From Echinarachnius parma (lineage: Eukaryota; Echinodermata; Echinoidea; Clypeasteroida; Echinarachniidae), in NCBI GenBank assembly GCA_037951105.1, contig JBAMJV010003108.1, positions 1 to 64,000 on the forward strand: DNA of 64,000 nt, read 5' to 3'. This document shows, in pieces, positions 7,601 through 52,986 of this stretch. The position numbers and the translations under genes are program-made. Below the pieces are notes generated by a model, which saw nothing but the letters and a program-made list of their open reading frames with translations, made no database searches and was not told where the DNA came from. Numbering within the stretch: position 1 is the stretch's first letter; every line of letters starts with the position of its first letter.

Positions 7601-9204
7601 TATTAATTAGATTTTCTAATGCAGATTTAATATTTTAAAGTAAAATTTTTAAAATTTCGAATAATTATTTGGGCATTATGTATCCAGATAAAATTGTAAC
7701 AACACATTGTAATTGCATTAGTTATAGTTACCCAAGTAGAGATGTGAAACATTTAAATTTGCACCCCCACCCCCCTGTTTTACAAAACCCTCTCCCGCCC
7801 CTCAAGGTCATAGTTGAGAAGCTTCCGCGGTGAAAATTAAATATCATGATGTAAACAATGAAATGTGTAAATTGTATGCTTCTTTCACTTTGTAACACAA
7901 TTGTTATGATTTATGGCCATTAGCTGTCTAACTACAGTATGCTGTATTGGAAATAAGAACAGAAGCTAATGTTTCTATTAGGCATAAAATAGTACATGTT
8001 GTGTGCTTCTCTCGTAATTCAAATTGTGTGCTATTCAGAGTGAGTCAGAAAAATGTCCCATCTTTTAAAAGTTGTCTTGTTTGAAGTATGAACATTTAAT
8101 CATGGGTTTATGATATGTCTTGGTAGAGTTATCCTCCCAGCATATTTCGGTACCCTTTTCATTTAAATCTCTGCACGCATGACTGAACAAAAGACAATCT
8201 TTAAAAGACTGCAAAATCTCACTTGCGCCAAGTGGTTGGGTGAAGAATAAAACAGTGTTTTGAACACACAGAAACACACACACACACACACACACACCCA
8301 CACACACACGCACAGTACAAATTATTTCATAATGCAGTGTTAGCATTTCCCCTTTTAACATTGATTTTTAACAAGATCGCTGAATATTTAAGCGGCAATT
8401 CCATGACAATCTTTCCCCTAACCATTCACCACCACCACCATCATCATCATCAAGTGCACATAAATCCAATGTGCTATCTCAATACGTTGGTACAATAGCA
8501 ATAAAAATGAATCTTGTTTATGTTTTTGGTTGGTTAACAATTGTGCAATTTACGATGGATATCTGTGCTTTTGTTGTACTTGCCACCAAAGGGATTGCCT
8601 GATTTGGCAGCAGTTAATTATGTTGAGCAGTTGAGCCCTGTTTGAGAAGGACAGGTACTGGAATTATGGTTCGTCTTCAGTTCACCCCGCAACAGAGATC
8701 ATTTTTTGTCACCAAGTATGCAAGAGTGTAAAATAAGTTTTGCAAGGGTTATGCCGCCGTTATCCCAATGTTCGGTGTCCCACCATTAAAAGTTATGAAT
8801 TCTTTAACAAATTGTTTTATTCCTCACCCAGCCACTTGGCGCAAGGGTGATTTTGCAGTCTTCCAAAGATTGTCTGATGTTCAGTCATGCGTGCAGAGAT
8901 TCAAATAAAAAGGGTACCGAAATATGCTGGGAGGATAGCTCTACCAAGACATGTCATAAAACCCATGATTAAATGTTCATACTTCAAACAAGACAACTTT
9001 TAAAAGATGGAACATTTTTTCTGACTCACTCTGACTCACTATATAGAAAAATTGACATGATTTAAAAAGTTAAATGAATCAAGTATATGCAAGTTTTTCA
9101 AGAAGTGTTTTAAACACTGTAAGTAATTAAATGGGTCGATAATTGCCCACTTCTAAAATACATTGCAGGGGCCGCGGAACCGGAGGGTTGGGGGCTGCAG
9201 CCTC

Positions 9205-11907: not shown

Positions 11908-12708
11908 CATGGTATGGACGAAATATACAATCATATTATAAAAAGTGACAATAAATGGCTAAACATGCATTTTTACGAACGATGAAGAATACAATAATCA
12001 CAATAATTGGATATTCAACATACACACTTATCCGTCTAATCAATGGTATAACTCTATAATTTAAACAAACTATTTAAGGACTTGAATCAAATCCACACAC
12101 AAAATTGCAATGCACTGAGAACATGGACAAACGACGGGCGAATCACCGCCCTTACCAAGGACAATAGGCTGTTTTCGCAAATGCGACGGGAGCATTCTAG
12201 TACGCTAATCTCTGCGGGGGGTCGCACTCAGTGCGAACATTTCTTCTCGTATCGTTCAAACCTACAACGGTATTCGGCTAAATTAGCGTCGGGTGTAGAG
12301 CGAGTACGGAGCGGCGTGGTCAGCCCATACTTCAATAGTTCAGCCAATCAGCGCGCTTGTTCACTCGAGCAAGGAGACGTTCCGCGTATTCTTCACTGCG
12401 AAACTGCAAATAGATCACGACGGTAACCAGAGTACGGGGACGGTCACAGCTGATTCAATTCCGCGTATTCAGCGCTCCCGTCGCGTTTGCGAAAAGTCGC
12501 TAAAAGGAAAATTAGGATCTCAAAAAGGCCGACTTAGAACAAATTTAAACTAAACAAGCAATGATTGTTTTAATCTTTTAATTTGAGACTGACCTATCCT
12601 TGTATGTGTAAAAGAAGTGTTAAATCAAATCAAAATACTGTATTACATGTATTATGTGTTGTTTGTTTGTAATAATTGGATTCATTTCAAATGTTCTGCT
12701 GTAAATCA
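11908..12708. other. Upstream flank of gene A; no gene seen
   Basis: Matches 47990-48385 in part. 12105-12500 is CG-containing and has no match in B; it holds a run of TTCGCAAATGCGACGGGAGC and an inverse form at 12470-12500, so it may be another short TIR element. Confidence 0.4.
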
Positions 12709-15700
12709 AGAGTCAATATAGGGCCTAAATTTTCGATCGTAGCAGAATCTTCTTCAGAGACTATAAAGTGACTTTAAAGCAGAATCTTCTTCAGAGACTA
12801 TGAAGTGACTATAAAGCAGAATCTTCTTCAGAGACTATGAAGTGACTATAAAGCAGAATCTTCTTCAGAGACTATGAAGTGACTATAAAGCAGAATCTTC
12901 TTCAGAGACTATAAAGTGACTTTAAAGCAGAATCTTCTTCAGAGACTATGAAGTGACTATAAAGCAGAATCTTCTTCAGAGACTATGAAGTGACTATAAA
13001 GCAGAATCTTCTTCAGAGACTATGAAGTGACTATGAAGCAGAATCTTCTTCAGAGACTATGAAGTGACTATAAAGCAGAATCTTCTTCAGAGACTATAAA
13101 GTGACTTTAAAGCAGAATCTTCTTCAGAGACTATCAAGTGACTATAAAGCAGAATCTTCTTCAGAGACTATGAAGTGACTATAAAGCAGAATCTTCTTCA
13201 GAGGCTATGAAGTGACTATAAAGCAGAATCTTCTTCAGAGGCTATTAAGTGACTATTAAGCAGAATCTTCTGCAGAGACTATGAAGTGACTATAAAGCAG
13301 AATCTTCTTCAGAGACTATTAAGTGACTATAAAGCAGTATCTTCTTCAGAGACTATGACGTGACTATAAAGCAGAATCTTCTTCAGAGACTATGAAGTGA
13401 CTATCAAGCAGAATCTTCTTCAGGGCTATTAAGTGACTATAAAGCAGAATCTTCTTCAGAGACTATTAAGTGACTATAAAGCAGAATCTTCTTCAGAGAC
13501 TATGAAGTGACTATGAAGCAGAATCTTCTTCAGAGACTATGAAGTGACTATAAAGCAGAATCTTCTTCAGAGACTATGACGTGACTATAAAGCAGAATCT
13601 TCTTCAGAGACTATGAAGTGACTATCAAGCAGAATCTTCTTCAGGGCTATTAAGTGACTATAAAGCAGAATCTTCTTCAGAGACTATTAAGTGACTATAA
13701 AGCAGAATCTTCTTCAGAGACTATGAAGTGACTATAAAGCAGAATCTTCTTCAGAGACTATGAAGTGACTATAAAGCAGAATCTTCTTCAGAGACTATGA
13801 AGTGACTATAAAGCAGAATCTTCTTCAGAGACTATTAAGTGACTATAAAGCAGAATCTTCTTCAGAGGCTATTAAGTGACTATAAAGCAGAATCTTCTTC
13901 AGAGGCTATTAAGTGACTATAAAGCAGAATCTTCTTCAGAGACTATGAAGTGACTATAAAGCAGAATCTTCTTCAGAGACTATGAAGTGACTATAAAGCA
14001 GAATCTTCTTCAGAGACTATGAAGTGACTATAAAGCAGAATCTTCTTCAGGGCTATTAAGTGACTATAAAGCAGAATCTTCTTCAGAGACTATTAAGTGA
14101 CTATAAAGCAGAATCTTCTTCAGAGACTATGAAGTGACTATAAAGCAGAATCTTCTTCAGAGACTATTAAGTGACTATAAAGCAGAATCTTCTTCAGAGG
14201 CTATTAAGTGACTATAAAGCAGAATCTTCTTCAGAGACTATGAAGTGACTATCAAGCAGAATCTTCTTCAGAGACTATGAAGTGACTATAAAGCAGAATC
14301 TTCTTCAGAGGCTATTAAGTGACTATAAAGCAGAATCTTCTTCAGAGACTATGAAGTGACTATAAAGCAGAATCTTCTTCAGAGGCTATGAAGTGACTAT
14401 TAAGCAGAATCTTCTTCAGAGACTATGAAGTGACTATAAAGCAGGATCTTCTTCAGAGGCTATTAAGTGACTATAAAGCAGAATCTTCTTCAGAGACTAT
14501 TAAGTGACTATAAAGCAGAATCTTCTTCAGAGGCTATTAAGTGACTATAAAGCAGAATCTTCTTCAGAGACTATTAAGTGACTATAAAGCAGAATCTTCT
14601 TCAGAGACTATGAAGTGACTATAAAGCAGAATATTCTTCAGGGCTATTAAGTGACTATAAAGCAGAATCTTCTTCAGAGACTATTAAGTGACTATAAAGC
14701 AGAATCTTCTTCAGAGACTATGAAGTGACTATAAAGCAGAATCTTCTTCAGAGACTATGAAGTGACTATAAAGCAGAATCTTCTTCAGAGACTATGAAGT
14801 GACTATAAAGCAGAATCTTCTTCAGAGACTATGAAGTGACTATAAAGCAGAATCTTCTTCAGGGCTATTAAGTGACTATAAAGCAGAATCTTCTTCAGAG
14901 ACTATTAAGTGACTATGAAGCAGAATCTTCTTCAGAGGCTATGAAGTGACTATAAAGCAGAATCTTCTTCAGAGACTATTAAGTGACTATAAAGCAGAAT
15001 CTTCTTCAGAGACTATTAAGTGACTATAAAGCAGAATCTTCTTCAGAGGCTATTAAGTGACTATAAAGCAGAATCTTCTTCAGAGACTATGAAGTGACTA
15101 TAAAGCAGAATCTTCTTCAGAGACTATTAAGTGACTATAAAGCAGAATCTTCTTCAGAGGCTATTAAGTGACTATGAAGCAGAATCTTCTTCAGAGGCTA
15201 TTAAGTGACTATAAAGCAGAATCTTCTTCAGAGACTATGAAGTGACTATAAAGCAGAATCTTCTTCAGAGACTATGAAGTGACTATAAAGCAGAATCTTC
15301 TTCAGGGCTATTAAGTGACTATAAAGCAGAATCTTCTTCAGAGACTATTAAGTGACTATAAAGCAGAATCTTCTTCAGAGGCTATTAAGTGACTATGAAG
15401 CAGAATCTTCTTCAGAGACTATGAAGTGACTATAAAGCAGAATCTTCTAAGGAGACTATGAAGTGACTATAAAGCAGAATCTTCTTCAGAGACTATGAAG
15501 TGACTATAAAGCAGAATCTTCTTCAGAGACTATTAAGTGACTATAAAGCAGAATCTTCTTCAGAGGCTATTAAGTGACTATAAAGCAGAATCTTCTTCAG
15601 AGACTATTAAGTGACTATAAAGCAGAATCTTATTCAGAGACTATGAAGTGACTATAAAGCAGAATCTTCTTCAGGGCTATTAAGTGACTATAAAGCAGAA

Positions 15701-18625
15701 TCTTCTTCAGAGACTATTAAGTGACTATAAAGCAGAATCTTCTGCAGAGACTATGAAGTGACTATAAAGCAGAATCTTCTTCAGAGGCTATGAAGTGACT
15801 ATAAAGCAGAATCTTCTTCAGAGACTATGAAGTGACTATAAAGCAGAATCTTCTTCAGAGACTATGAAGTGACTATAAAGCAGAATCTTCTTCAGGGCTA
15901 TTAAGTGACTATAAAGCAGAATCTTCTTCAGAGACTATTAAGTGACTATAAAGCAGAATCTTCTTCAGAGGCTATTAAGTGACTATAAAGCAGAATCTTC
16001 TTCAGAGACTATGAAGTGACTATCAAGCAGAATCTTCTAAGGAGACTATGAAGTGACTATAAAGCAGAATCTTCTTCAGAGACTATGAAGTGACTATAAA
16101 GCAGAATCTTCTTCAGAGACTATTAAGTGACTATAAAGCAGAATCTTCTTCAGAGGCTATTAAGTGACTATAAAGCAGAATCTTCTTCAGAGACTATGAA
16201 GTGACTATAAAGCAGAATCTTATTCAGAGACTATGAAGTGACTATAAAGCAGAATCTTCTTCAGGGCTATTAAGTGACTATAAAGCAGAATCTTCTTCAG
16301 AGACTATTAAGTGACTATAAAGCAGAATCTTCTGCAGAGACTATGAAGTGACTATAAAGCAGAATCTTCTTCAGAGGCTATAAAGTGACTATAAAGCAGA
16401 ATCTTCTTCAGAGACTATGAAGTGACTATAAAGCAGAATCTTCTTCAGAGACTATTAAGTGACTATAAAGCAGAATCTTCTTCAGAGGCTATTAAGTGAC
16501 TATAAAGCAGAATCTTCTTCAGAGACTATGACGTGACTATAAAGCAGAATCTTCTTCAGAGACTATGAAGTGACTATGAAGCAGAATCTTCTTCAGAGAC
16601 TATTAAGTGACTATAAAGCAGAATCTTCTTCAGAGACTATTAAGTGACTATAAAGCAGAATCTTCTTCAGAGACTATGAAGTGACTATAAAGCAGAATCT
16701 TCTTCAGAGACTATGAAGTGACTATAAAGCAGAATCTTCTTCAGAGACTATGAAGTGACTATATAGCAGAATCTTCTTCAGAGACTATGAAGTGACTATA
16801 AAGCAGAATCTTCTTCAGAGACTATGAAGTGACTATAAAGCAGAATCTTCTTCAGAGCTATTAAGTGACTATAAAGCAGAATCTTCTTCAGAGGCTAGTA
16901 AGTGACTATTAAGCAGAATCTTCTGCAGAGACTATGAAGTGACTATAAAGCAGAATCTTCTTCAGAGACTATGAAGTGACTATAAAGCAGAATCTTCTTC
17001 AGAGACTATTAAGTGACTATAAAGCAGAATCTTCTTCAGAGACTATGAAGTGACTATAAAGCAGAATCTTCTTCAGAGACTATGAAGTGACTATAAAGCA
17101 GAATCTTCTTCAGAGACTATGAAGTGACTATAAAGCAGAATCTTCTTCAGAGGCTATTAAGTGACTATAAAGCAGAATCTTCTTCAGAGACTATGAAGTG
17201 ACTATAAAGCAGAATCTTCTTCAGAGACTATGAAGTGACTATAAAGCAGAATCTTCTTCAGAGACTATGAAGTGACTATAAAGCAGAATCTTCTTCAGAG
17301 ACTATGAAGTGACTATAAAGCAGAATCTTCTTCAGAGGCTATTAAGTGACTATAAAGCAGAATCTTCTTCAGAGACTATGAAGTGACTATAAAGCAGAAT
17401 CTTCTTCAGAGACTATGAAGTGACTATAAAGCAGAATCTTCTTCAGAGACTATGAAGTGACTTTAAAGCAGAATCTTCTTCAGAGACTATGAAGTGACTA
17501 TAAAGCAGAATCTTCTTCAGAGACTATGAAGTGACTATAAAGCAGAATCTTCTTCAGGGCTATTAAGTGACTATAAAGCAGAATCTTCTTCAGAGACTAT
17601 TAAGTGACTATAAAGCAGAATCTTCTTCAGAGGCTATTAAGTGACTATAAAGCAGAATCTTCTTCAGAGCTATTAAGTGACTATAAAGCAGAATCTTCTT
17701 CAGAGACTATGAAGTGACTATAAAGCAGAATCTTCTTCAGAGACTATGAAGTGACTATAAAGCAGAATCTTCTTCAGAGACTATGAAGTAACTATAAAGC
17801 AGAATATTGTTCAGAGACTATTAAGTGACTATATAGCAGAATCTTCTTCAGAGACTATTAAGTGACTATAAAGCAGAATCTTCTTCAGAGACTATAAGTG
17901 ACTATAAAGCAGAATCTTCTTCAGAGACTATGAAGTGACTATAAAGCAGAATCTTCTTCAGAGACTATGACGTGACTATAAAGCAGAATCTTCTTCAGAG
18001 ACTATTAAGTGACTATAAAGCAGAATCTTCTTCAGAGACTATTAAGTGACTATAAAGCAGGATCTTCTTCAGAGGCTATTAAGTGACTATAAAGCAGAAT
18101 CTTCTTCAGAGACTATTAAGTGACTATATAGCAGAATCTTCTTCAGAGACTATTAAGTGACTATAAAGCAGAATCTTCTTCAGAGACTATAAGTGACTAT
18201 AAAGCAGAATCTTCCTCAGAGACTATGAAGTGACTATAAAGCAGAATCTTCTTCAGGGCTATTAAGTGACTATAAAGCAGAATCTTCCTCAGAGACTATG
18301 AAGTGACTATAAAGCAGAATCTTCCTCAGAGACTATGAAGTGACTATAAAGCAGAATCTTCTTCAGAGGCTATGAAGTGACTATCAAGCAGAATCTTCTT
18401 CAGAGACTATTAAGTGACTATAAAGCAGAATCTTCCTCAGAGACTATGAAGCGACTATAAAGCAGAATCTTCCTCAGAGACTATGAAGTGACTATAAAGC
18501 AGAATCTTCTTCAGAGGCTATGAAGTGACTATCAAGCAGAATCTTCTTCAGAGGCTATGAAGTGACTTTATAGCCTCTGAAGAAGATTCTACTAGGATCG
18601 AAAATTGAGGCCCTATTTTGACTCT
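12709..18625. mobile_element. TIR-bounded element whose body is a 37-bp satellite
   Basis: Left TIR 12709-12771 begins AGAGTCAAWATAGGGCC. The right TIR at 18563-18625 is its inverse, with about six mismatches in 63. The inner half of the TIR is itself one satellite monomer, so the array grew from the element's own subterminal repeat. No protein-coding frame. Unit B lacks the element; its matching site near 48385 carries other sequence. No clear target duplication was found next to the TIRs. Confidence 0.85.
12742..18570. repeat. 37-bp satellite array, about 157 monomers
   Basis: Monomer core GCAGAATCTTCTTCAGAGAC, then TATGAAGTGACTATAAA. Variants: TATTAAGTG, GAGGCTATT and a 36-bp form with CAGGGCTATT. 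The array is head to tail throughout. The last partial monomer is inverted and belongs to the right TIR. 37 is not a multiple of three and no frame stays open. Confidence 0.97.
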
Positions 18626-18741
18626 CATTTTATTACCCAGGCATTATTATAGTAGATAAGCAGTGTTCAGCAGTATTTTTGCATCATTTGATGTAAATCA
18701 AGATAATATATTCCACTCGCACGCTATATAAATGGACATGT

Positions 18742-19085
18742 AACGTATGTTTCTGGCGTGAAATGCGACCAGAAAATGACCATGAAACAGATATTTATGT
18801 TGATATTCCATGTACTCTGAACTCTAAACTAAAATCTATAAAAAGAGGTTTGTTGGTAATGAACTTAGATGTGAGGAGTCTTAGAGGGAAACTAGATCAT
18901 ATAAAATTGTTATTATTTGAACAATTATTTCATATGAATTGCTGAAACGTGTTTGAATGATTCGATTGATGATGCAGAAAATGGTATAAATGGTTATTAT
19001 TTTAAACGAAAGGATAGAAATCAGTATGGGGGAGGTGTTGGTTGTTATGTTAAATCCGATTTGATATACTTGAAGAGATGATATG
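18742..19085 (+). mobile_element. LINE fragment: N-terminal endonuclease region
   Basis: Translation gives KRGLLVMNLDVRSLRGKLDH, then after an interruption DTWLNDSID and YYFKRKDRNQYGGGVGCYV. This is the start of the APE endonuclease of CR1/L2/jockey-type LINEs (NxRSL, TDTWL, GGGVGCYV blocks). At least one stop and a short loss break it. Unit B copy at 48600-48890. Confidence 0.75.
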
Positions 19086-19089
19086 ATGG

Positions 19090-19302
19090 ATGAGTGTTTG
19101 GATAGCGCCCTCTTGAGTTTAAACGGCTCTTTTCGAATGATAACAGGGTTTTTACTTAGTCATTTGTAATTGTTATCGATCCTTTCGAGCATGGTGGAGT
19201 TATAATTATTAGTTTGTAATGTAATGGTGCAGGTTTTGGTTACTAAAATTAAGTTTGACCAAAACTGTACTCTCTTTGCCAGAACTCAACTTTCCCTTTA
19301 AG
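19090..19302. mobile_element. Fragment of the GGGATAGTTGAG MITE family
   Basis: Holds GCGCCCTCTTGAGTTTAAAC, the CGAGCATGGTGGAGTTATAA block and the terminus CCAGAACTCAACTTTCCCTT. Counterpart at 48905-49084. Confidence 0.75.
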
Positions 19303-20429
19303 TAACAATCTTCATTCATAAATTCAAGTATTATAGCAGGTACAATACGTTATTACGTGGCAATAACTTGACATGGAAATTCAATTCATGATCGAAACCT
19401 CCAACTTAAATTGTAGTCAATGCGACCGAACGAATTGTGCACACTATGATATTATTCTACATAACTTCCGTAATCATTACACGACTGCTGTCTATGAATC
19501 ATAATGCAAACCATGCAAAGTCACAATTATGGCAGTTAATAGAACTATTACACACAAAATGAAACAAACAACTTATTCATCATACATTTCAGCTGTCACA
19601 GTGTTCAATGTAACGTTAATCGATACACCATGACTTGTATACAATACACATTCCTGTAATACAAATATGGTAATGTGAAGCGAAGTAAAGCACATAAAAC
19701 ATAAAATATATTTGATGATGTACCGTACTCGATGTAAGTTAAAGCCAAATACCAGTTTTGAGATAGTTACCGAAAACATCTATATTGGCCAAACTAATTG
19801 ATCAATATTGTTGAATAAGTATTTAAAAAGGGCTTGTGTGGTAAAATCCGAACCTAAGCATCGTTATGCTGAATTATCTGAAGAAATCCAATGGCCGGAA
19901 TATATAAATGCACCAAACGTTCGCACCTGTCCGCGCCGCAGCGCTGGGCTGGAGATATGGACAAGCCCGCACACCGGAACAAGTGGAGACCACGAGATGT
20001 CTTTTGCACGTAGCGTTTGCGCGATGCCGCGTTGGCGGTACGATTTACAGTAAATCACTTTATAAATGTGCAAATACATCAATTAGTGGGCGGTTTCCTC
20101 GACATCAATTAGTAGGCGGTTTCCTCGACATCAATTAGTAGGCGGTTTCCTCGCCAAATTTGTATAATCCCAAATTAGTCAAATTATATTCTTTCACACG
20201 GTTGGAAATAAGAGCGTACATTAAATTTGTGTTGTATGGGGCGTTTCCCACTACTGTCATTTACCTTTCACGAGGAGGTTTTCACCAAAATGTATACATG
20301 TATTTATCATGAAAAGCTGTATTTGTAAAGTAAACTAAAGAACTATTAACTATACAATAACAAACAGGTGAATCAGTATTCAACAAACACGTAAGTAAAA
20401 AATAAAAATAAAAATAAAAAACATTGTAA
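19303..20429. other. Duplicated flank (matches 49320-50400), no gene seen
   Basis: Closely paralogous to unit B over most of its length. 19760-19880 also occurs inverted at 41570-41690. 19920-20050 is GC-rich (CCGCAGCGCTGGGCTGGAGA) without a supported frame. Confidence 0.55.
20076..20153. repeat. Three-copy tandem repeat, 26-bp unit
   Basis: ACATCAATTAGTRGGCGGTT then TCCTCG, three times. Unit B has a single copy at about 50103-50128, so the expansion came after the duplication, or B contracted. Confidence 0.9.
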
Positions 20430-21076
20430 CCCTTATAAGGCCGGGGGGTCATTATTGCTCAGAAACGCGTAAGGATGACGCCCCGCCACATTGTGACTTT
20501 TTTTCTTTCGAGTCTTGCGCATCTTTTAAAACAATTTTTTTTGAAAATCGGATCTATCGTTACGAAGTCACGTGACCTTTTGTCACTGCACGTCAGTCCG
20601 AAAATCGCTTATTGTCGTGATTTGTGTACAAAACATATGGAAATATCAGTTTTCTAATAAGAGATATCATTGGTTAATGGTTTTTTTTACCATTCAGGTT
20701 TTGTCTTGGGGTCAAAATAGTTTACTTAAAGTTGGAAATGAAATGAAACAACAAAAACAATGAAGTACATCAGTTAAAAGAGATACATAAGAAATTATCA
20801 AAACAATACAAAACATAAGAAATAACCTGTCTTTTCCAAATTGTTTTGCTGTATTATTATTCAAAATGGTATCAACAATGTATGTAGTGAAAATCAATGT
20901 TAAATTATGAAGAATATATGATTTATGGGTACAAATATGGATTTTATGATCTTATTTGCCAAAATTACCATATATTTGCAATTTTGCCGAGATTTTAGGG
21001 GGGCATAATAGCCCCCCCCCCCCCCCCCCCCCCCCCCCGCCGTGGAAAGACCTCAAATAGCCCGGCCTTTTTAGGG
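20430..21076. mobile_element. TTAA-type (piggyBac-like) MITE with inner poly-C tract
   Basis: TIR CCCTTATAAGGCCGGG at left; the right end is CCCGGCCTTTTTAGGG, then TTAA. The left target copy has decayed to GTAA here but is TTAA in the unit B copy. Poly-C at about 21011-21038. It carries no transposase. Confidence 0.82.
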
Positions 21077-21080
21077 TTAA

Positions 21081-23150
21081 CTAGTCATCGATTAGAGCTT
21101 GAGAATCACCGAAGATCTCACCAAAAAGAAGCTCGACCTTCTCAGAGCCACCTACAGATATCCGTCTGTCGAGCAAGCCTGGACAAGGTCATCGCACTCA
21201 TCAAGGCAACGAACGGTAAGAAGACAACAAAGCACATCACTAGCGAAAGTGCCTTACAAAACTTACCACACGACCCAGATGAGAACCAAACACTCACATG
21301 CATCAAACAATAAAACCTATAATAGAAACTGATTCCTTGTATCAATGATCTTTTAGGTGTGATCAATTCTAATAACCTGGACATTCGAATTTTTAATGCT
21401 AGGTTGTTAAGTAATTATTGATTTTATTTGTGTATTTGTGTATGTTGTATATTTAGTTATGTGTTTGCATGTGTGTATCTTCTTCTTCTATTCTTATGAT
21501 TACACATTGAACCAAAGATGTGATACTATACTTTTTTAATTAACATGTAAACATTGTACGTTTTCATTCTTTCATAATATTATGTACTTAGTTTAGATAG
21601 AAATTATTTTGAAATTGAACATTTATTGTATTCATTGAATTTTACTTTTGATATTATTGGCCTTTCAGAAGCATGGATAAAAACCGATATGTCACCCGAT
21701 TATAAATATGTTGGTTTAGGCCGAAGTGAAAAGCAATGTGGTGGAATAGGATTTGGTATAAAAAGTAACATTGAATATGAAATAAGGGATGATTTGAATG
21801 TGTTGAATGATATTTGTGAAAGTTGTTTTATTGAAATTCCTAAAGCTGGTAAAAATATGATTCTTGGTGTTTTTTATAGACCACCAGAGAACTCAGTTAT
21901 TCAATTTATACATATTATTAAAGAAATAATGGAAAAAATAAATGTAGAGCATAAAGATTGGATATTCATGGGCGATTATAATGTTGACATTAAGAGAATT
22001 GATCAGTTGAATTATGTTAATGAATTCTTAGACGCTATGTCATCATTTTCTTTTCACCCACTCATTACATCTCAAACTAGAATTACACAAACAACGGCTA
22101 CATTGATTGATAATATTTTTAGAATAATGCTAATGATTTAATATCTGCTTCTATTATTTGTGATATTTCTGATCATTTTCCAATATTGTCTTTGTTTGAT
22201 TATCCATAACCTTGTATTACCAATAGAAAACACTTTAAAAGACAAATGACAGCAATGTAAGTAAGTTCCTGGCCAAATATTCAGAAAACAAAATTTATGG
22301 TATTTTGTAAAAAAAATACTACTGATACACAATCTGTCCAGATATATATTAATGGTGTTGAGTTACAAAGGGTTGAAACTGTTAAGTTTCTTGGAATTTA
22401 TATAGATGATAATATGAAATGGAAAAGTCAGGTTAATAAGTTGTGTAACCAGGTTTCAAGAAATATTGGTGTTATAAATAGATTGTCTGAGTTCATACCA
22501 CAAACTATATTATTATCTTTATATAATACTCTTATATTGTGTCATTTAAATTAATGAATTTTAATTTGGGGATCTTCAAATAATTATTTATTAAATAGAA
22601 TATTAATATTACAGAAACGTTGTGTACGTATAATATCTAAATCTGGTTTTAGAGCACATACTGCCCCTCTATTTAATACATTTAAAATGTTGCCTGTACA
22701 TGCACTGTATCATTATAATGTCGGTATATTTATGTATTTATATTTTACCTACAAATTTCCATTCATTCTTTGATAGAAATATTGATATTCATACTTACAA
22801 TACCAGAGAAAAGTTAAATTATCGTGTTATTCATGGTCATCTTCCCTCTCTCGTACATTAATATCATACAATGGTCCACTGCTGTGGTACAGTTTACCTG
22901 AAAATATCAAGAATTCAAAATATACATTTTTAATAATCTTTAGCATTTCATGCTTCATTATCATTGCCTATCTTTGTGAAATATATTAATAGTAACGTCA
23001 TTTTTCTTCCTTATCACTTGACTCTTATTACAATTTTAAATATTCAGGGGTTATGCTTATAAGTCATTTGAGACTTTATGCTATATTATTTTAATTCAAC
23101 TGTATTATGTTTATGATTGTATGCAAAAGTGGAATCAATTCAATTCAATA
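21081..23150 (+). mobile_element. LINE (CR1/L2-like), ORF1 end plus internally deleted ORF2
   Basis: 21100-21300 encodes an ORF1 C-terminus (RITEDLTKKKLDLLRATYR, then after a frame change IALIKATNGKK). 21626-22141 is the endonuclease: IIGLSEAWIKTD, GGIGFGIKSN, ILGVFYRPPEN, FMGDYNVDIKR. A frame change follows, then ICDISDHFPIL (the SDH motif). The reverse-transcriptase palm is missing: sequence jumps to KTKFMVF and FLGIYIDDNMKWKSQV (22297-22554). LQKRCVRIISKSGF follows near 22610. Ends near 23150. Unit B copy 51063-52530 shares the palm deletion. Confidence 0.85.
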
Positions 23151-25345: not shown

Positions 25346-25361
25346 TCTAAATGTATATATA

Positions 25362-26800
25362 AACCCCTCAAAAAAAGTTCGGAAACTCAAGTTTCATCGA
25401 TCATATCTCTCGTATTTTTAAATAAGAATACTCGAAATCGGTGTCACAATAAAGCCTCATTATATACCTTTCAAACGATGCATTATGTGTAGTGATTATG
25501 CAATTGGGGCGATTGCAGTAGCCCAGAGAATAGGGGGAGGCAGGAAGTGAAATCTCGCAAAATGGCCCCAATGCATTCAATTTCCGAGCAAGACTGTGTT
25601 GACCAGTTTTCTAAAGGTTAACATTCTATTGAATGCTGCCACCCTTTCCATTCATCAAAATTGTTGAATTTGATACCATTTTAATGGAAATTATCTCTTC
25701 CTTACGATGGCATATTAATCGTAAGGATTATGCAAATGGGGTGTGTGCAGCGAACCGGAATATGGAGATGGGTCGAGTGTGAAATCAGACAAAAAGATAT
25801 GGAGTTGACAAAAAATCAGAGCGTTGCATTTTTTTCGAGCATTTGGGAGGATTTGTTAGCATTTCAAATAAAATATTCATGATTTAAATTGATATCAACG
25901 GAAAGCCCAACAACTCTTCTGTATGAAAATGTGACATTTATAATGATTTTTGTAAAGGGCGGCTGCAGGGAGATGAATGTGGGGGAGCCTCAAAAGTGAC
26001 CCATTTCAAAACGCTCTGATTTGGTGTCGGTATCTGTATACCATTGTGTAGAGGATGTAATGCGACTTGAATGAGTTGGCCATGAATGAGAGGAATTCAA
26101 TTGAAAACGCATGAATAGTGCCTTGAAATCAGAGCGTTTCAAAATGGGTCACTTTTGAGGCTCCCTCCCATTCATCTCCCTGCAGCCGCCCTTTACAAAA
26201 ATCATTATAAATTTCACATTTTCATACAGAAGAGTTGTTGGGCTTTCCGTTGATATCATATTTGATCATGAATATTTTATTTTAAATGCTAAAAAAATCC
26301 TCCCAAAAGCTCGAAAAAAATGCAACGCTCTGATTTTTTGTCAACTCCATATATTTTTGTCTGATTTCACACTCGACCCATCTCCATATTCCGGTTCGCT
26401 GCACACACTCCATTTGCATAATTCTTACGATTAATATGCCATCGTAATGAAGAGATAATTTCCATTAAAATGGTATCCAATTCAACAATTTTGATGAATG
26501 GAAAGGGTGGCAGTATTCCAGTATTCAATAGAATGTTAACCTTTAGAAAACTGATCAACACAGTCATGCACTCGTAAATTGAATGCATTGGGGCCATTTT
26601 GCGAGATTTCACTTCCTGCCTCCCCCTATTCTCTGGGCTACTGCAATCGCCCCAATTGCATAATCACTACACATAATGCACCGTTTGAAAGGTATATAAT
26701 GAGGCTTTATTGTGACACCGATTTCGAGTATTCTTTATTAAAAAATACGAGAGATATGATCGATCAAATTTGAGTTTCCGAACTTTTTTTGAGGGATTTA
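25362..26800. mobile_element. 1.44-kb near-perfect palindromic (foldback) element
   Basis: Arms of about 660 bases (25362-26025, 26127-26800) flank a loop of about 100 bases. Termini read AACCCCTCAAAAAAAGTTCG and the inverse, set in TATATA. Differences between the arms are few and scattered. Unit B has the empty site near 52955. No coding frame. Confidence 0.92.
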
Positions 26801-26853
26801 TATATATACTATATAATAAATAAATTTTGAAAAAGTTGCATGTTTAGTGTGTA

Positions 26854-31202: not shown

Positions 31203-31332
31203 AAATGGCGACCGGTGACTGCGTGGACTTGATCACGAACGCCATATCCAGGGATTAAGTAGATCAGTAGGTCTCGAAACTGAAGATGACGAGAGCGACC
31301 ACAATCGTCATACCCGAGACGACACCGGCACA
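31203..31332 (-). pseudogene. CD225 exon-3 fragment with its 3' flank
   Basis: 31203-31282 matches the 3' flank of the intact exon 3 (31940-32005). 31283-31330 on the minus strand reads AGVVSGMTIVVALVIF, against AGLVTGIILVVASIIF in the intact copy. The polar loop and splice acceptor are missing. Confidence 0.7.
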
Positions 31333-31600
31333 ACCACCATTCTAGGTGTTTTAGATATCAGTGGTTCTCCACGTCTATCAAACACACTTGGCAAACTTCA
31401 AAGGAAGAAGAACTTGATTCAGGGAAATTTTAAGTAGGATTACCTAGAATTACCAAAATTGCTGCCAGTGACTTCATTTATGAAATCATGATTGCCATTC
31501 CAGGGGTTAGGTCGATATCGGTGGTCTCAATTGAAGGTACAACAGAACGTTGCTATGGGAAGTATGTAGTTGTACAGGGAGATATTAGCTATGATTACGT
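31310..31600. repeat. ~165-bp repeats beside the exon-3 cluster
   Basis: Blocks CACAACCACCATTCTAGGTG, TTTTAGATATCAGTGGTTCT and GCTGCCAGTGACTTCATT recur. Several copies lie at 56460-57060. They share GCGACCAGTGACT-type sequence with the flank of exon 3. Confidence 0.65.
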
Positions 31601-31694
31601 AAGTTTCTGCTGTAAAATGGATCTGATTCTATGAGTATTGTGACTCGAATCCACCATGGGACTCATAGGGTTGAAGGAAATCTGGATAGTACCC

Positions 31695-31927
31695 AGGGCC
31701 CTGTAACATAAAGATTAAATTTCATCTTACGATCAATTAATCAACTGAACGATCAGTTAATCAATTGTACGATCAGTTAATCAATTGTACGATCAGTTAA
31801 TCAATTGTACGATCAGTTAATCTATTGTACGATCAGTTAATCAAATGTACGATCAGTTAATCAATCGTATGATAAATTGATGGATCGTACTATTAATCGT
31901 CGATCTACAGGTATGTTACAGGGCCCT
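31695..31927. mobile_element. MITE with AGGGCCCTGTAACAT TIRs and an inner 20-bp tandem
   Basis: Exact inverted termini AGGGCCCTGTAACAT. Inside, GATCAGTTAATCAATTGTAC repeats with a 20-base period at 31751-31870, six copies. It lies just downstream of the gene B stop codon. Confidence 0.88.
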
Positions 31928-32001
31928 GATTTGTTGGCGTAAAATGGCGACCAGTGACTGCGTGCACTTGATCACAACGCCCTATCCAGGCATTAAGTAG
32001 A

Positions 32002-32184: not shown

Positions 32185-35100
32185 CTGTTAATGGTAGGCA
32201 CAACATAAGAACATTGTTAACCGAAGATGATGAACTAACACACGGTGTCTACGACGAGACCACCAATTATAGACCAGTTCTTGGCGGAACATGAGGCCTC
32301 CTCTGCACTCGCAACGTCCCCTGCCAGGCGACGGTTCCGCACCTGTTAATGGAAGGCACAACAAGAACATTGTTAATCGAAGAACATACTGATAATGATG
32401 AAATACACGATGTCTACGACGAGACCACGAATTATAGACCAGTTCTTGGCGGAACGCGAGAACTCCTCCGCACCCGCAACGTACGTCTTCTGTCCGGTGG
32501 CGGTTCCGCACATGTTAATGGTCAGCACAAATGGTAGAGAGGGCGCTAAATAAATGTATTTTTTTGTGAGATAATGAAAAACTGAGTGTTAAATTGGAAA
32601 GAACACAATATTTTGATGACAGAAGAAACTTTATTTGTTCAAAATCTGTTCAGAAACGGCTGAAATCCATAAACATAGCCATTTGTAATAAATGTGGGCC
32701 CCACACTTATTCGATAATTCTTAACCAACCGTTAAAAATTCAAAAAAATGCTTCCTCTTTACAAAAAAGTTACAAAATAGTTATTTAATTAGTTGTTGGT
32801 TATTTCTCTATCTAATCACTATTTCAACAAAACATCACATGCACAATATTTTATTTAAAATGGTTGAACCCGAAGAGTGTTTCGAAAGCGCCCTCTTACG
32901 TTTTAACGGCTCTTTTTTAATGAAAACATGATCTTTACTAAGTCATTTGTAATTGCGTGTTCCTTTCTAATTATAACTATTAGTTTGTAATGTAATGATG
33001 CAGGTTTTCGTTATTATGTAGTTGTTAATTAATTACATAAGGCATCTTCACACCTGTATCCCTCTCTCAACTCTCCCACACTTTTTCTTTTCTCTCTCTA
33101 TGTTTCCCGTATTTCTCTTCCAGTATGGACTGTACCTTTCTATCATGCCTGCTACATATCTTCCTGCTCTAGAACATACTGTAAAAAACTGTCTTAACTA
33201 TCATTTTCTCTCTATTTGTAAATAATGTTTTATATTTGTTGTTTTTATTACTTTTTTCTTGTATGTATTAATTTATGTTTATCTATGTTTTATGAATATT
33301 ATGTAAAACTTGTAAAATCTCAGGTACAGCATCACTTCAAGCTTCTAGCTTATATTGCCGAGCGCTGTGTGTTTCTATCTCGATGTTATGACAGTTTATT
33401 TGTATGTACGAAATTGTTTACTGTGAGACATGCAGGAATAAATAAATAAATAAAGAAAGAAATAAATAAAAATTCAGTTTCACCAACACTGTACTCTCTT
33501 TACCAGAACTCAACTATCCCTTTAATCGAAGAACACAGTGGCCCAAAATCTCAACTTGTTGCTCGACTTGTGCCTGGCCTAAAAGACAAAACTTCCAGTA
33601 ACACTTTGCACCTATCGTCTCCTAACTTTGGTCCCCGGAGATATTTTAATTGTTTCATTTCATTATCAAGTCCATCCCTTGATAGCCTCGTATAGGCATC
33701 AGGACAATGGGCCCTTTAAAAATAAGTTATAGTAAATTCTGCCATTAGGCAAATTGCGTCCTAGATCACCCTGGACACTGTATTGCTGGTGACCTGTTTG
33801 ACTGTTATAAATGAATTTAAAAGGGCCCATTGTCCATTTGTCATAATAGTCGGGGCTGTTAGGGATATTTTGGTGCAGATTCTTCTAAAAGCACCAAATG
33901 TGGCCCAGAGGTAGTTCATACCATACTATTACGATTTCTGCCGGATGCCAAGAAGGGCGCCCTCTGGGGCCGCCATTTTGGACAAATCCAAAATGGCCGC
34001 CATATCGGTTCAAAATCACTTGTAGCTTCAAAACAAAGAGAGCTAGCATAGTAAAAGTTTATATAAATATGGGGTTTTCAGGGTCGGGGAACGTGATTAT
34101 GATGTTATTTCATCGATTTGAGGTCTCCTTGGGGCCGTCGTATCGGTCAAATCCAATATGGCTACCATTTTAGTTAAAATTCAAGTTTATTTTCAACGGA
34201 TAAGGGCTACCATTAATTAGTTTATATGAATATGGGGTTTTCAGGGTCAAGGAATCTGATAAGTATTCCCTTTTATAGATCTGAGGTCTCCTTGGGGCTT
34301 TTATGCTAGTCATAATGGTAAAATCCAAAATGGCCGACATTTGAGTTAAAGGTCAAGTGTTGTTTCAAACTGAAAAGGCATAGCATATGGGTCATCAAGG
34401 GGCGTGAAACCATCCGCATAACGGCGAAAAAATGGACCATGGACACGAAATTGGACATATACAGCGGAAAGTCTCCTTCCCAGATATCGCATGAAGCAAG
34501 TCCTCAGAAACTCTAGTTCAATATAGTTAAAAAATACTTTGATCCGTGGTAGATCTCAAGACGTTGATACAACATATCAAATGACTCGGGTGGACCCATC
34601 ACATGATGGCATCACTCCGAATAGACAGCTTGCTCGAGAATGTAGGGGAATACTAAGGTAACTAATTAATATGCATGCTCGTGTGCTTGATGTGATGCCT
34701 ATTGAGTGCAGAATGAGCGTGACCTGACATCAGTACCTCTGCTTGGGAAAGAACAATGACCCATCCAGAGTCTCGAAGACGCTTTCCTATCGTCATAGTT
34801 ATTGTCTGAAATATACAGCACGCTCATCTCAATCACCGACTTGTCTTCACCCACAGTTGAGGGAAATTGCCCCTGGAATAGTCTGATTATATCATGAAAG
34901 ACTGATCTGCAGGATTTGGCCTGGAAAAGGACAATGGCACATCCTGAGTTGAGAAGAAGCTTTCCTATCATCTTCAATATGCAAGGCGCTCATCTCAGTC
35001 ACCGACTTGTCTTCACCCACAGTTGAAGAAAATTGCCACTGGAGTAGTTTGATGATATCATAAAAGCCTGATCTGCAAGATTTGGCCTGGGTTTAGAAAC

Positions 35101-38100
35101 TCATTACCCTGTCTTGTCAGATCCATCTAATACTTTTATCTTATATTAATTCATGATGTAGTTGCAGCATTGTCTGGGAAGAGATGTTAGACGCCAGTTT
35201 TTCTTTTTTATGCACCCCGGAAACGTGTGCCATCAATGCTCTATCCTTTTCCTTCGTGCATCGCGCATCGAGGTGGGGTCTGATCTCATTTTCGGCAAGG
35301 ACATCCGATTGAGTTTGACCGGGGGCTTGATGATATAGGCCTTTGTGTATTGTAGCTTGGGAGTGCGCGAGTCTGAAGGGTCAAGTTTAATGACCCATTT
35401 GGCGCTGCATTTGACATGTAACGTATACGGCGGCCATTTTGGATTTTAGCAATATGGCAAGCATGACGAGTTGACGACAGCAGAAGATGTGAAATTAATG
35501 AAAAACCACCGTAATCAGAATCCCTAAAACCGAAAAGCCCATACTTATATACCCTTGTACATGTATTATGCTAGCCCTGTATAACTCACTACTCTCAACC
35601 TTTCACTTTGATGGCGGCCATTTTGAATTTGACCAATATGACTATACATGACAGTCCCAGGTAGACCTCAAATCGATGAAAGACCATCATAATCAGATTC
35701 TCTCACCCCCAAAACCCCATATTTATGCATACTCATTTATGTTATGCTTTTTCCGTTTGAAACTACACGTGACCTTTAACTCAGACGGCGGCCATTTTGG
35801 ATTTTACCATTATGACTAGCATGACAGCCACAAGGAGACCTCAGATCTATAAAAGGACATCATTATCAGATTCCTTGACCCTGAAAACCCCATATTCATA
35901 TAAACTATTTCATGGTAGCCCTTATCCGTTGAAAATAAACTTGAATTTTAACTAAGATGGCGGCCATTTTGGATTTGACCAATATGACAGCCCCAAGGAG
36001 ACCTCAAATTGATGAAAGAACATCATAATCACGTTCTCCGACCCTGAAAACCCCACATTTATATAAACTTTTAATTTGCTAGTTCTCTTTGTTTTGAAGC
36101 TACGGGTGATTTTGAACCCATATGGCGGCCATTTTGGATTTGCCCAAAATGGCGGCCCCAGAGGGCGCCCTTCTTTTCATCCGGCAGAAACACTGACCTC
36201 TACTAATGGACGGGCGGCTGTACGTTGATTGGCCATTCAAAAATGAGGCCGCCGCGCGCGCACGGCGGCCATATTGGGACCATCATCATTGACCGCCGAT
36301 AACCCGCTGTTGATAGTGTGTAACATTTGTAAACATTTTTCAGATTAATTTTACCAATTGTTCTCGTTATGTAAAAAAGTGTTGATTGTATTCTGATTAG
36401 GGAAGGCACATTACATGGCATTTGGCTGTACAAATCGAAATGATAATGACATGAAAAAGGCTGAAATCACGTTTCATAGGCGAGTTGTTTACAGTCATTG
36501 GGCCGCCTACAGTCCCATGTGTTATGTGTTGTGTCAGCAAAGATTATAGTTTCCCTCTTATATTCACATATATATTAGGTTGCTACATTTATTATAAATA
36601 GTGTACTGTACTGATAGATTTGTTTAAATATTGAAATAAAACAAGTGAAATCGATAAGAGATTTAGATACGGGCAGGCAAATAGATGACACAAATGTGAT
36701 TGTAAACTTGAAAATGTATTTTTGATATAATTGAATAAGTGATTGGGGTTTAAAAATGTTTGAATTCATAAAGCCTATACTAAGGCTAGGGTTTTTTGTC
36801 GAAAAAGTGACTCATTAAGTTAATTACAGCCAATAAAAAGTGAAATAATGAAAGAAGATACAATAAATTAAATATTGGTATTATGCACTCATTTGAATTT
36901 ACAAGGAATCATGGTGAATTTTGAGGGGATACCGAGTCATTGTGGAATTTGCAATGAAATGGTTGATAGAGAAGCAAAACATGGCTTGGGAAAAAAAGGA
37001 GATTTGTAATTAAGTGAAATGAATAGTATGATTAAACAAAAGTATTTTATTAAATGGCAACAAAGATGGGAGGACTTTGAATCTTCCTTGGAAAATATTT
37101 AAAATAATGTAACTCAGTCGTATATAGGCCTACCATTATTGCATCGTTTACGGATGGGAAATATTGGTATGTGTATATCATGGGCATATAGAAAGATACA
37201 TAATGTATTTTTTAAACTTTAGGAGCAATTAATTTGAGTTGAAACAAAAAAGAGAAAAGAAGGAAGAAAACAAAAACAGATTGGCTCAAAATGAATGAAG
37301 AACGGCAATAAACACAAAACAACACCAACGACAACATGTCTCTCCAATTAATGTAAAGTATTGACTGTTTTATAACATGTACTAAATAGAGGTTGCATAT
37401 GGTCGAACATCGAATTTATTCAGAAGTGTTTTATAACCTCCATGATCGATCCCTGGTCGATGTTCATAATGATTGAAAACAAACCATAAAGGTAACATTA
37501 TGAACCATAACTCATAAAGCATGCCCTTTGAAATAGTAATCTCAGGAAGAACGCGGAAAACATGTTACCAAAATAAATTGAAAAGGAAAGAAAAGAAAGA
37601 TTGGCTTTCTTGTTATGATATTTTGATATACGAGGATGATGACGTGCCATATTATATGGTATAGTAAAGTGATGCATGAACGCATGGTACAATTAAATAA
37701 ATTAATGAAAACAGCAGAAAAGTTCTTTCTTTACATGGGGAACAAAATCTTGTTTAAAAACAAGGGGAAAATAAGAGATAAACTAGGGGCGAGTAATAGT
37801 TATAAGATTCCGAGGGAATCCGAGGGAATCTCTCCGGGCAACGCCGGCGCGCATATACCTTACGTTACCGTGTAAGCATCATAACAAATGGCGAATTATC
37901 ATTGCTTGAGCTGTGATACAATACGCTGGATAATTGTAATTAATCATGCTAGTATTCAATCACTAAGACTATTTACTTCACTCATATATCATTCATGGGG
38001 GGATAAAGGGATATAAAAATGCCATGGTTAGCAACAACTCCGTAGCAAGTAGAATGCACTACCACGTTCGTGCATTATCCGCTGTTACGGGTTGATGGTC

Positions 38101-38393
38101 CCAACATGGCGCGCGCCCACAGTCCGCGGCCTCAATTACTGAGCCATGACCGCCCGTCCATAAGTAGAGGTCAGTGGGCAGAAATCGTAATACTATGATA
38201 TGGACTACCTCTGGGCCAAATTTGGTGCTTTTAGAAGAATCTGCACCAAACACTCCCTATATGTCCCTAACAGCCCCGACTATAACGCTTATAAGCAGCT
38301 CTCAAGATATTGACTTGATGATGAAAAGATGCCATTGCAAGAGCATACGGCGACACATATTGCGAATGCAAGGTAGTCATCATCATAACCACT

Positions 38394-38436
<43 letters not shown>

Positions 38437-40058
38437 CTAATTGGGCTTACATCACCATCATCGTCATCCTCACTGATATCATACTCATCATCACCATAAT
38501 CAACGTCATCATCACCGCTATCATTATTATCATCATAATGATATTCATCATCACAGATATCACCATCGTCTTCATCATTATAATCATCATCATCATCACC
38601 GCTATCATCATCATCATCAACTTCATAATCATCGTCATCATCATCATCATCACCGCTAACATCATTATCATCATCATCGTCACCATCACCGCTATCATCA
38701 TCATAATCATCATCATCATAATCAACATCATCATCACCGCTATCATCGTCATCATTATAATCATCGTCATCATCACCGCTATTATCATCATAATCATCAT
38801 AATAACAATAATCATAGTCATCATCATCATCATAACATAATCATCATCATCACCACAACCATCATAATCATCATAATCATCGTCATCATCACCGCTGTCA
38901 TCATCGACATCATCATCGTCGTTATCATCATCCCTCTTTGGGCATAAAAGTGATAAAATGAGAGTCGTGTGGAGCCTAGCTTTCGATCCTGGCAGGATTT
39001 TCGTCAGGGCAAAAATGACAAAGACTCGAGTCTTACTTGCGTGCTCTTGACAATGGCCACGATGGCAAACGGAAGGCAACAGCAGAGGGTGTCACATATT
39101 GCAAATGCAAAGTAGTCGTCATCATCATCATCATCCCTAATTTGGCTTACATCATCATCATAATAATCATCGTCATCATCACCGCTATCATTATCATCAT
39201 CATCATAATCATCTTCATCATCACCGCTCTCATCATCGTCGTCATCATTATAATCATCATCATCATCATTACCACTATCATCGTCATCATCGTCATCATC
39301 ATCGCCGTTATCATCGTCATCATCATCATCATCACCGCTATCATCATCATCATCATCATCGAGTCTTACTTGCGTGCTCTTGACAATGGCCACAATGCCA
39401 AACGGAAGGCAACAGCAGAGGGTGACCAAGATTGCGAATGCAAGGTAGTCGTTGGGCTGCACTTGTGTTTCTCGCACGATCACTGTAGTTTGCGGTGCAC
39501 CCTAAAGAAAATACAAGAAAGCATGAATAATTGTTAAAATACTGAAAAAATAGAGTGCCAATACGTGTGATATTATACTGATTTCATATCGGTTAATTGT
39601 TTAGGTAAAGGTACAATCATACTCGACACAAAATAGTATCGTTTAAAAAAAAGATACTTTACATACAAATACATTCATTGTCAAAAGTATGACACATTTC
39701 AATATTTTAATTGCTTTGCATCGGGCGTTATCAGGTCAGGTCAGTTCAGGTCAGGTCATATGATCTCTCTTGCTACCTTTTGAAATTTGTTTATGATGTT
39801 ATGAAGATTTGTGCACTATGACTACAACTATATTTATCATTATCTTCATGAGGATAATGATCATCATCCTCCTCCTCTTCTTAAACATCATAATAATTGT
39901 TCATACTCATCGTCATCATCATCATCATCACACTGGCATTGTCATCAACGTCAAAATCATCACCGTCATCTAAATTATCTCCTTGATCATTATCACCATC
40001 ATCAACATCATCCACAGCAGCAGCATCACTATCATCATCACCAACACCAGCATCATCG

Positions 40059-47929: not shown

Positions 47930-48384
47930 TTGTTGGGCGGATGCCAATGATTGATTTTAATAACATGTATTTTTCTTTTAAAAATGTGGCTTTTCATGGT
48001 ATGGACGAAATATATAAAATTATATTGCGAAAAATGGCAATATATGGCAAAACATGCATTTTTACGAACAATGAACAGAATACATAATAACAATAACTGG
48101 ATATTCAACAGATACACGTAATACGTCTAATCAATGGTATATCGAATATATAATTTAAACAAACTATTTAAGGACTTGAATAAAATCCAAAAGAAAACAG
48201 AAACTTTTAACAAAGAAGGATACATTATTATGTACAAAGGATGAATGTGACATTGAGAAATTTTGATATAACTATGAGACTGACATATCCTTATATGGCC
48301 TGTAAAAGAAGTGTTAAATCAAATCAAAATGCTGTATTATGTGTTGTTTGTAATAATTGCATTTATTAGAAATGCTATGATGTA

Positions 48385-48475
48385 AATCAAGCGCTTAGAA
48401 ACCCTGTCAGGGCTTAGAAACCCTGCACTAAGCGCTTTATAAATGCAAGCTATTATTATTATTATATTATATTCC
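48385..48475 (+). mobile_element. SINE tail at the site matching the 37-bp element's locus
   Basis: AAGCGCTTAGAAACCCTG is repeated, then AAGCGCTTTATAAATGCAAG and (ATT)n. Preceded by GATGTAAATCAAG, as is the satellite element in A. Confidence 0.55.
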
Positions 48476-48599
48476 ACTCGAATGCTAAATGGACATGCAA
48501 CGTAATTTATTGCGTGAAATGCCGTACTTTGGTTATATACTATACTCAATAATGTGGATACTCAAACAGAAAATGACAATGAAACGGATATTATTGTAT

Positions 48600-48890
48600 G
48601 TTGATGCTCCATGCATGGACTTTGAACTCTAAACTAAAATCTATGAAAAGAGGTTTGTTGGTAATGAACTTAAATGTGAGGGGTCTTAAAGGGAAACTAG
48701 ATCATATAAAATTGTTATTGTTTGAACAATCATTTGATATAATTATTTGCAATAACTGACACGTGGTTGAATGATTCGATTGATAATGCAGATAATGGTA
48801 TGAATGGTTATTATTTTGAACGAAAGGATAGAAATCAATATGGTGGAGGTGTTGGTTGTTATGTTCAATCCAATTTGATATACTAGAAGA
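48600..48890 (+). mobile_element. LINE endonuclease fragment, unit B copy
   Basis: KRGLLVMNLNVRGLKGKLDH then FEQSFDII; later NGYYFERKDRNQYGGGVGCY. Paralog of 18742-19085. Confidence 0.75.
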
Positions 48891-48904
48891 GTTGATATGG
48901 AGGA

Positions 48905-52665: not shown

Positions 52666-52744
52666 TGCATTGTTCTTAACTCCTTCCCCATGAATACTTG
52701 AGCACAAAGGGCCGAGAGATTGGCTTGCCAGTGACTTGAATTGG

Positions 52745-52955: not shown

Positions 52956-52956
<1 letters not shown>

Positions 52957-52986
<30 letters not shown>

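Follow-up and report, generated by a model that had tools for sequence, protein, structure and literature searches.

A 37-bp tandem array framed by inverted repeats in Echinarachnius parma, probably grown from the apex of a small hairpin element

Results

Structure of the array and its ends

We analysed a 64,000-nt stretch of the Echinarachnius parma genome (GenBank assembly GCA_037951105.1, contig JBAMJV010003108.1, positions 1 to 64,000, forward strand), referred to below as the window. At 12709-18625 it carries an element in which a long array of a 37-bp monomer lies between two inverted repeats. The parts of this element are as follows.

12709..12742 (+): left inverted repeat, outer part, 34 bp; three mismatches to the right end in 34 columns (alignment)
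12741..18574 (+): array of the 37-bp monomer, 158 units in a single direction, consensus AGCAGAATCTTCTTCAGAGACTATGAAGTGACTATAA (Tandem Repeats Finder, TRF, and unit parse)
12743..12780 (+): left inverted repeat, inner part, which is the first monomer, variant ACTATAAAGTGACTTTAAA (alignment, parse)
15275..16454 (+): two adjoining 590-bp blocks of 16 monomers each, 99.3% identical (block comparison; lag 16, z -3.35)
18538..18590 (+): 53-nt palindrome, stem of 25 pairs and loop of 3 nt, in which the last forward monomer pairs with the inverted one of the right end (fold)
18554..18591 (-): right inverted repeat, inner part, which is one inverted monomer (alignment)
18592..18625 (-): right inverted repeat, outer part (alignment)

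TRF reported a period of 37 bp, 158.1 copies, 95% matches and a score of 10422 at 12741-18574. When units were cut at a conserved start, 142 were 37 bp and 15 were 36 bp long, and the final unit continued into the right end; every unit was oriented the same way. The mean divergence from the consensus was 2.6% (142 37-bp units), and the mean difference between units was 4.7% (all units). An earlier note on this DNA, made from the letters alone, had given a 5.8-kb array of a 37-bp monomer with ends at 12709 and 18625; TRF, the parse and the alignment reproduced all of these values, and its estimate of a roughly 157-fold expansion was correct to within one unit.

The two ends, 12709-12780 and the reverse complement of 18625-18554, aligned without gaps over 72 columns with eight mismatches. 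The alignment scored 104, and none of 300 shuffles exceeded 27. The earlier note had described these terminal inverted repeats (TIRs) as 63 bases long. Their existence is thus confirmed, while their length extends to 72 columns, with six of the eight mismatches falling inside the 63-base span. The same note had taken the inner half of each TIR to be one monomer, and the alignment agreed: the inner 38 columns (five mismatches) are one monomer, direct at the left end and inverted at the right, and the outer 34 columns (three mismatches) are non-monomer sequence. By itself the outer part scored 50; for 2000 random pairs of 100-bp pieces from the same window, the 99th percentile lay at 23 and the highest score at 46. 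We tested 11 arrays, hand-picked from the TRF list, for flanking inverted repeats within 100 bp. Two exceeded the 99th percentile of the null, namely the 37-bp array and a 20-bp array at 31728-31873 (score 34). The other nine had no inverted repeat above that level, among them 35613-36069, which is situated within one arm of a larger inverted repeat.

No open reading frame (ORF) of at least 150 aa overlapped 12709-18625, a lack of coding capacity that is a trait of miniature inverted-repeat transposable elements (MITEs). The element contained no RNA family at gathering level, and a permissive RNA scan of 12400-19000 returned a single sub-threshold match and no ribozyme. A literature text search with 16 letters of the monomer found no match. 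Long-shot searches, of viral contigs with the monomer and ends and of bacterial and archaeal genomes with the monomer, gave zero matches, as expected for an animal element.

Two other element types did not fit. In foldback elements of the Tetris and Galileo kind, tandem repeats lie within each of the long TIRs, whereas the present element has one unidirectional array and a single inverted monomer at its right end. Helitrons and Helentrons, which can carry satellite arrays, lack long terminal inverted repeats and end in 5'-TC...CTRR-3'; here, 72-bp terminal inverted repeats are present and the ends read AGAGTC...GACTCT.

The element without its array

Without 157 of its monomers, the element is reduced to 123 nt that folded into a single end-to-end stem of -54.3 kcal/mol, compared with -11.2 +/- 2.7 kcal/mol (best -19.4) for 200 dinucleotide-preserving shuffles. 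Because this remainder folds as one stem, the monomer forms the apex of a hairpin element and comprises the inner arm, the loop and the beginning of the other arm. In the element as it stands, the fold of 18537-18625 had a z-score of -8.2, and none of 200 shuffles was equally stable. No special fold was seen in the first monomer alone (z 0.70), an internal dimer (z -0.76) or the left end alone (z 1.63). A microRNA model, MIR781, matched the hairpin at 37.1 bits, where 88 are needed (E 0.00017); we interpreted this match as a reflection of the palindrome and rejected it.

Within the 123-nt remainder, the 37-bp stretch has (T)AGC at either end (12740-12743 and 18571-18574). Such a match at both ends would permit slippage. 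It is suggestive only, as the cut was placed at the boundary of a monomer, and the GAGGC variant of the arm is needed for the fourth base to be shared.

The insertion site and its array-free paralog

Self-comparison with the array masked showed that one region is present twice in the window, at approximately 1-31.6 kb and 38.4-57.1 kb, in copies that have diverged and are largely collinear. Matching pieces were about 75% to 100% identical; substitutions amounted to 2.2% over a LINE-like (long interspersed nuclear element) stretch at 20128-22432 and to 7.6-11% near the array. This unevenness suggests patchy conversion or reinsertion. The flanks of the array have counterparts in the second copy (12584-12708 with 48275-48389, and 18770-19301 with 48567-49086), so that the following features of the site could be delimited.

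12700..12711 (+): direct repeat TGTAAATCAAGA, left copy; its last three bases are the first three of the inverted repeat (word search)
18626..18691 (+): tail of 66 bp that separates the right inverted repeat from the right copy of the direct repeat (paralog comparison, word search)
18692..18703 (+): direct repeat TGTAAATCAAGA, right copy (word search)
48275..48567 (+): paralogous site without the array; it has a single TGTAAATCAAG, at 48381, and directly after it a different insert of about 72 bp (self-comparison, word search)

The 12-bp direct repeat brackets the element plus 66 bp on its right. An exact word of at least 12 bases was common to random 30-bp and 100-bp stretches in 63 of 20,000 pairs, drawn from the window minus the array region and CAT-rich places. 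Searched on both strands of the window, TGTAAATCAAG occurred at 12700, 18692 and 48381 only. The presence of one TGTAAATCAAG in the array-free paralog and two in the copy with the array supports a course in which an element may have inserted and later expanded in place. Elsewhere in the window, matches to the 66-bp tail did not exceed 17 bp. Its overall alignment to the insert of the paralog was no better than chance (396 of 500 shuffles equalled it), and the best local match was reached by 23 of 500.

At 48389-48460 the paralog has its own insert, about 72 bp long, at the place where the other copy has the array. Short inverted ends, AAGCGCTTAG and CTAAGCGCTT, and a TATTATTATTATT tail were recognised in it by eye. 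Two different insertions at one site are a striking coincidence.

Spread of monomers within the array

Monomer variants were not distributed evenly along the array. The variant ACTATAAAGTGACTTTAAA, which continues the left inverted repeat, occurred three times (12760, 12908 and 13093), always in the first 10 units. Five array units carried the variant TTCCTCAGAG, all within about the last 10 units at the right edge (18212-18470); its one match outside the array was at 29665. When similarity between units was compared with shuffled order, two of 69 lags went beyond a z of 2.5, namely six and 16 monomers (z -3.37 and -3.35). A 36-bp GGGC variant occurred 11 times. In nine of these cases the next unit was one and the same monomer type, which makes up 29 of the 158 units overall, and in the other two it was a relative one or two bases off that type. 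The similarity at lags six and 16, the 590-bp blocks and the succession after the GGGC variant therefore indicate that units spread in blocks, with the edges separate from the centre. The pair of 590-bp blocks is a recent multi-monomer duplication within the array, and the block-wise spread matches what is expected from unequal exchange or slippage.

Other tandem and inverted repeats in the window

The second array with flanking inverted repeats belongs to a much shorter element.

31694..31928 (+): array within inverted repeats, 235 bp; perfect 17-bp ends CAGGGCCCTGTAACATA; 7.3 copies of a 20-bp unit at 31728-31873 (TRF, inverted-repeat search)

With up to three mismatches allowed, the 17-mer CAGGGCCCTGTAACATA was found in the window at the two ends of this element only (0.11 matches expected). 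We take its terminus to be reminiscent of hAT elements; an 8-bp target duplication was not seen in its flanks. An inverted unit at its right end was weakly supported (5 of 500 shuffles were as good). Without its array the element is 115 nt long and had a folding energy of -25.4 kcal/mol, compared with -8.0 +/- 2.4 kcal/mol (best -16.3) for 200 simple shuffles.

Several further repeats were observed. A foldback-like element at 33846-38283 has inverted ends of about 100 bp followed by 453-bp inverted arms (92%), the arms being made up of units of about 165 bp with GGCGGCCATTTTGG. A 1-kb element at 8035-9034 has 222-bp inverted repeats, 93% identical. A near-perfect palindrome at 25354-26806 has arms of about 680 bp (95%); the paralogous pieces join in (TA)n at 52955-52984 without a palindrome. 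Of the paralogous regions 56629-56983 and 31328-31598, one has approximately 2.2 copies of a 166-bp unit, and the other seems to hold about one, with no TRF array.

The window also contains two tRNA-Gly (TCC) genes at 52580-52836, inverted and about 110 bp apart within 139-bp inverted arms that are 99% identical. An ORF at 39004-39483 (-) matched the CD225 (interferon-induced transmembrane) domain with an E-value of 1e-24 in two stretches; its reading frame passes through CAT/ATC-type repeats, and the region is partly paralogous to 1-980. A LINE-like endonuclease ORF scored 19.2 bits, under the Pfam cut-off of 24.5. Together with the repeat content, these two ORFs point to animal DNA.

Discussion

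Origin of the array

We consider it fairly probable that the array derives from a small, MITE-like inverted-repeat element whose hairpin apex seeded tandem growth in place. The array, its inverted repeats, the monomer within them, the hairpin of the remainder, the array-free paralog and the block duplications can all be read directly in the window; the mobility of the element, the order of events and the slippage step are our reconstruction. A non-autonomous, near-palindromic element of about 123 bp would have inserted into one of the two paralogous copies of the locus. Its 37-bp hairpin apex, consisting of about 21-25 bp of inner arm, a short loop and the beginning of the other arm, would then have seeded the array. 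Slippage of replication at the hairpin would best account for the first duplication, aided by the 3-4 bp of (T)AGC that the ends of the later monomer have in common, and duplication of multi-monomer blocks, via unequal exchange or slippage, could have carried growth to 158 units.

The element is a likely transposon; a target duplication at its inverted repeats was not seen, and the window holds no second copy. The 72-column terminal inverted repeats with eight mismatches are those of a MITE, and the array, as in a MITE-born satellite, is enclosed by inverted repeats and has sequence in common with the element. MITEs are usually small (<500 bp), and the element measures 5917 bp as it is and about 123 bp without its array. 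Because neither an abutting target duplication nor small size was found, we do not claim MITE family membership proper. No superfamily can be named either, since the direct repeat is offset from the right inverted repeat and only CA lies at the inverted repeats themselves. The earlier note had spoken of a satellite born inside a TIR transposon. Its anatomy is right, and its reading is partly supported, by the inner-half monomer, the similar divergence of the outer and inner halves, the continuous hairpin and the array-free paralog; an abutting target duplication and a second copy in the window were not found.

A number of observations weigh against this origin. No target-site duplication of at least 3 bp abuts the inverted repeats; by eye, CA alone is common to both sides (12707-12708 and 18626-18627). 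The right direct repeat stands 66 bp outside the right inverted repeat, beyond a tail of no explained origin, and no second copy of the ends of the element was found in the window (longest match 11 bp). Substitutions numbered 10 of 114 and 38 of 503 in the nearest paralogous flanks and eight of 72 (11%) between the inverted repeats. The inverted repeats are thus as diverged as the flanks, and the insertion is therefore not visibly younger than the duplication of the region; the divergence clock gives no timing for the one relative to the other. It is possible that deletion between the 12-bp direct repeats produced the array-free paralog. In a scan of possible joins against the paralog, the best score was 312, compared with 293.5 for the ends of the inverted repeats and 271.5 for the direct repeat; this score is uninformative, because 396 of 500 shuffled tails equalled the real one. 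The 123-nt hairpin and the AGC match were partly produced by cutting at the monomer boundary. The remainder of the 31694-31928 element pairs end to end over its outer 17 bp only and otherwise forms small local hairpins; as it is not one hairpin, this element supports arrays within inverted repeats and not seeding from an apex. Finally, a 26-bp unit is present in three copies at 20076-20153 and in one at the paralogous 50102-50127, with a flank score of 11 and no inverted repeat, which indicates that tandem growth here can be independent of inverted-repeat elements.

Three other explanations were weighed. The array might predate its link to the TIRs, a pre-existing 37-bp minisatellite having been taken up or hit by a TIR element, with the inverted monomer arising by conversion from end to end (TIR lengthening). 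Capture of this kind has been proposed for miDNA4, in the form of an ancestral MITE acquiring a tandem repeat, according to the account in PMC12628747. In the present element, the arms of the right palindrome are exact over 21 bp and both read GAGGC where the left end reads GAGAC, as local correction between arms would leave them. Against capture, a later conversion should have left a fresher inner part, whereas the inner and outer halves are similarly diverged (5/38 and 3/34), and the inverted stretch is a single monomer, not several. We regard capture as unlikely. The array could also be an ordinary minisatellite without any transposon, its edges inverted by fold-back repair or replication (a quasi-palindrome) and the 12-bp direct repeat being a repair duplication. 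The lack of a target-site duplication at the inverted repeats, the unexplained 66-bp tail inside the direct repeats, the single copy in the window and the multiplication of another short tandem unit without inverted repeats are all in keeping with this. It accounts poorly for the outer 34 bp, which are non-monomer and which, like the array, were not found at the paralogous site; the extra sequence of the inverted ends therefore arrived, or was kept, together with the array. The presence in the window of a second, unrelated array framed by perfect 17-bp inverted repeats also speaks against it, and we hold an origin without a transposon to be quite unlikely.

The remaining explanation overlaps with the favoured one on the array and departs from it on the class of element. 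The element and its 66-bp tail could be one unit that inserted with a target duplication of 12-15 bp, in the manner of non-LTR (long terminal repeat) and Penelope-like retroelements, with the inverted repeats internal to it; the exact 12-bp direct repeat around element and tail, single in the paralog, would be its target duplication. Against this, the left repeat overlaps the inverted repeat by three bases, so that 9 bp are independent. An A-rich 3' end was not seen, and the RNA searches of the element and of 12400-19000 gave neither a family at gathering level nor a ribozyme. We give a retroelement unit little chance. Seeding by the hairpin apex of a MITE-like element remains our preferred origin.

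More tentatively, small inverted-repeat elements might recurrently become minisatellites in place here, the ends being kept as a frame while an inner stretch is recopied, so that unrelated families would be seen at different stages in one 64-kb window: about seven 20-bp units between 17-bp inverted repeats in one, and 158 37-bp units between 72-bp ones in the other. In the larger element the copied stretch would be the hairpin apex, and folding would set both the length and the ends of the monomer. We rate such a recurrent process as doubtful, in part because the smaller element, once its array is left out, does not fold into a single continuous hairpin.

The origin of satellites is an old question, and arrays frequently bear no visible trace of it. 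Here, one window holds a presumed seed (a monomer in each hairpin arm), the expanded array, variants at its edges and an array-free paralog. If the hairpin without an array proved common in the genome, the monomer of a new array would be predictable from the hairpin apex.

Comparison with known systems

The earlier note had proposed the passage from element to satellite as a route by which mobile elements seed satellites. This route is not new and has precedents in print in Xstir, miDNA4 and Tetris, as described in PMC12628747, PMC9659126 and PMC4079207. Growth of tandem repeats within MITEs is covered there for miDNA4 (Scalvenzi and Pollet) and for Xstir (Hikosaka and Kawahara), the latter with a stem-loop model (PMC12628747). 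Stem-loop models are restated in PMC8268682, MITE-derived satellites are listed for frogs, ants, bivalves and others in PMC9659126, and coral MITEs are described as occurring in tandem arrays in PMC2872659.

The Xstir/Xmix MITE of Xenopus (Hikosaka and Kawahara 2004) resembles the present element in that an array arose from internal sequence of an inverted-repeat MITE, for which a stem-loop mechanism was proposed (PMC12628747, PMC9659126). These accounts describe it as a MITE, as an array and in composite form, whereas the present locus shows a single composite form. In Xenopus tropicalis, miDNA4 (Scalvenzi and Pollet 2014) is a MITE with either one monomer or a variable array, for which microhomology was invoked. 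Its repeat is considered captured in the account compared, while the monomer here belongs, on present evidence, to the TIR.

Tetris of Drosophila virilis, with its TIR-220 repeat, has internal arrays that reach 66 copies, and the repeat has sequence in common with the terminal part of the TIR (PMC4079207). The terminal domain and the 220-bp unit have a 37-bp stretch in common that is about 80% similar according to the same source; we take the recurrence of the number 37 as a coincidence. As described there, TIR-220 is tandem within the TIRs, with a unit of about 220 bp and target duplications of 8-10 bp, whereas the present array is unidirectional, with a 37-bp unit and no abutting duplication.

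In Porphyromonas gingivalis, BrickBuilt is a MITE with a 23-bp minisatellite whose unit number varies across loci and strains (PMC4596501). It differs in being bacterial, and the description compared does not place its unit in the TIR. The tandem-repeat MITEs of Donax trunculus and the pearl/CvA elements of bivalves are, going by title and table entry, likewise MITE-type and linked to tandem repeats. The principle of a tandem array seeded by a transposon has thus been described in frogs, flies and clams, and the E. parma locus is a clean example of it.

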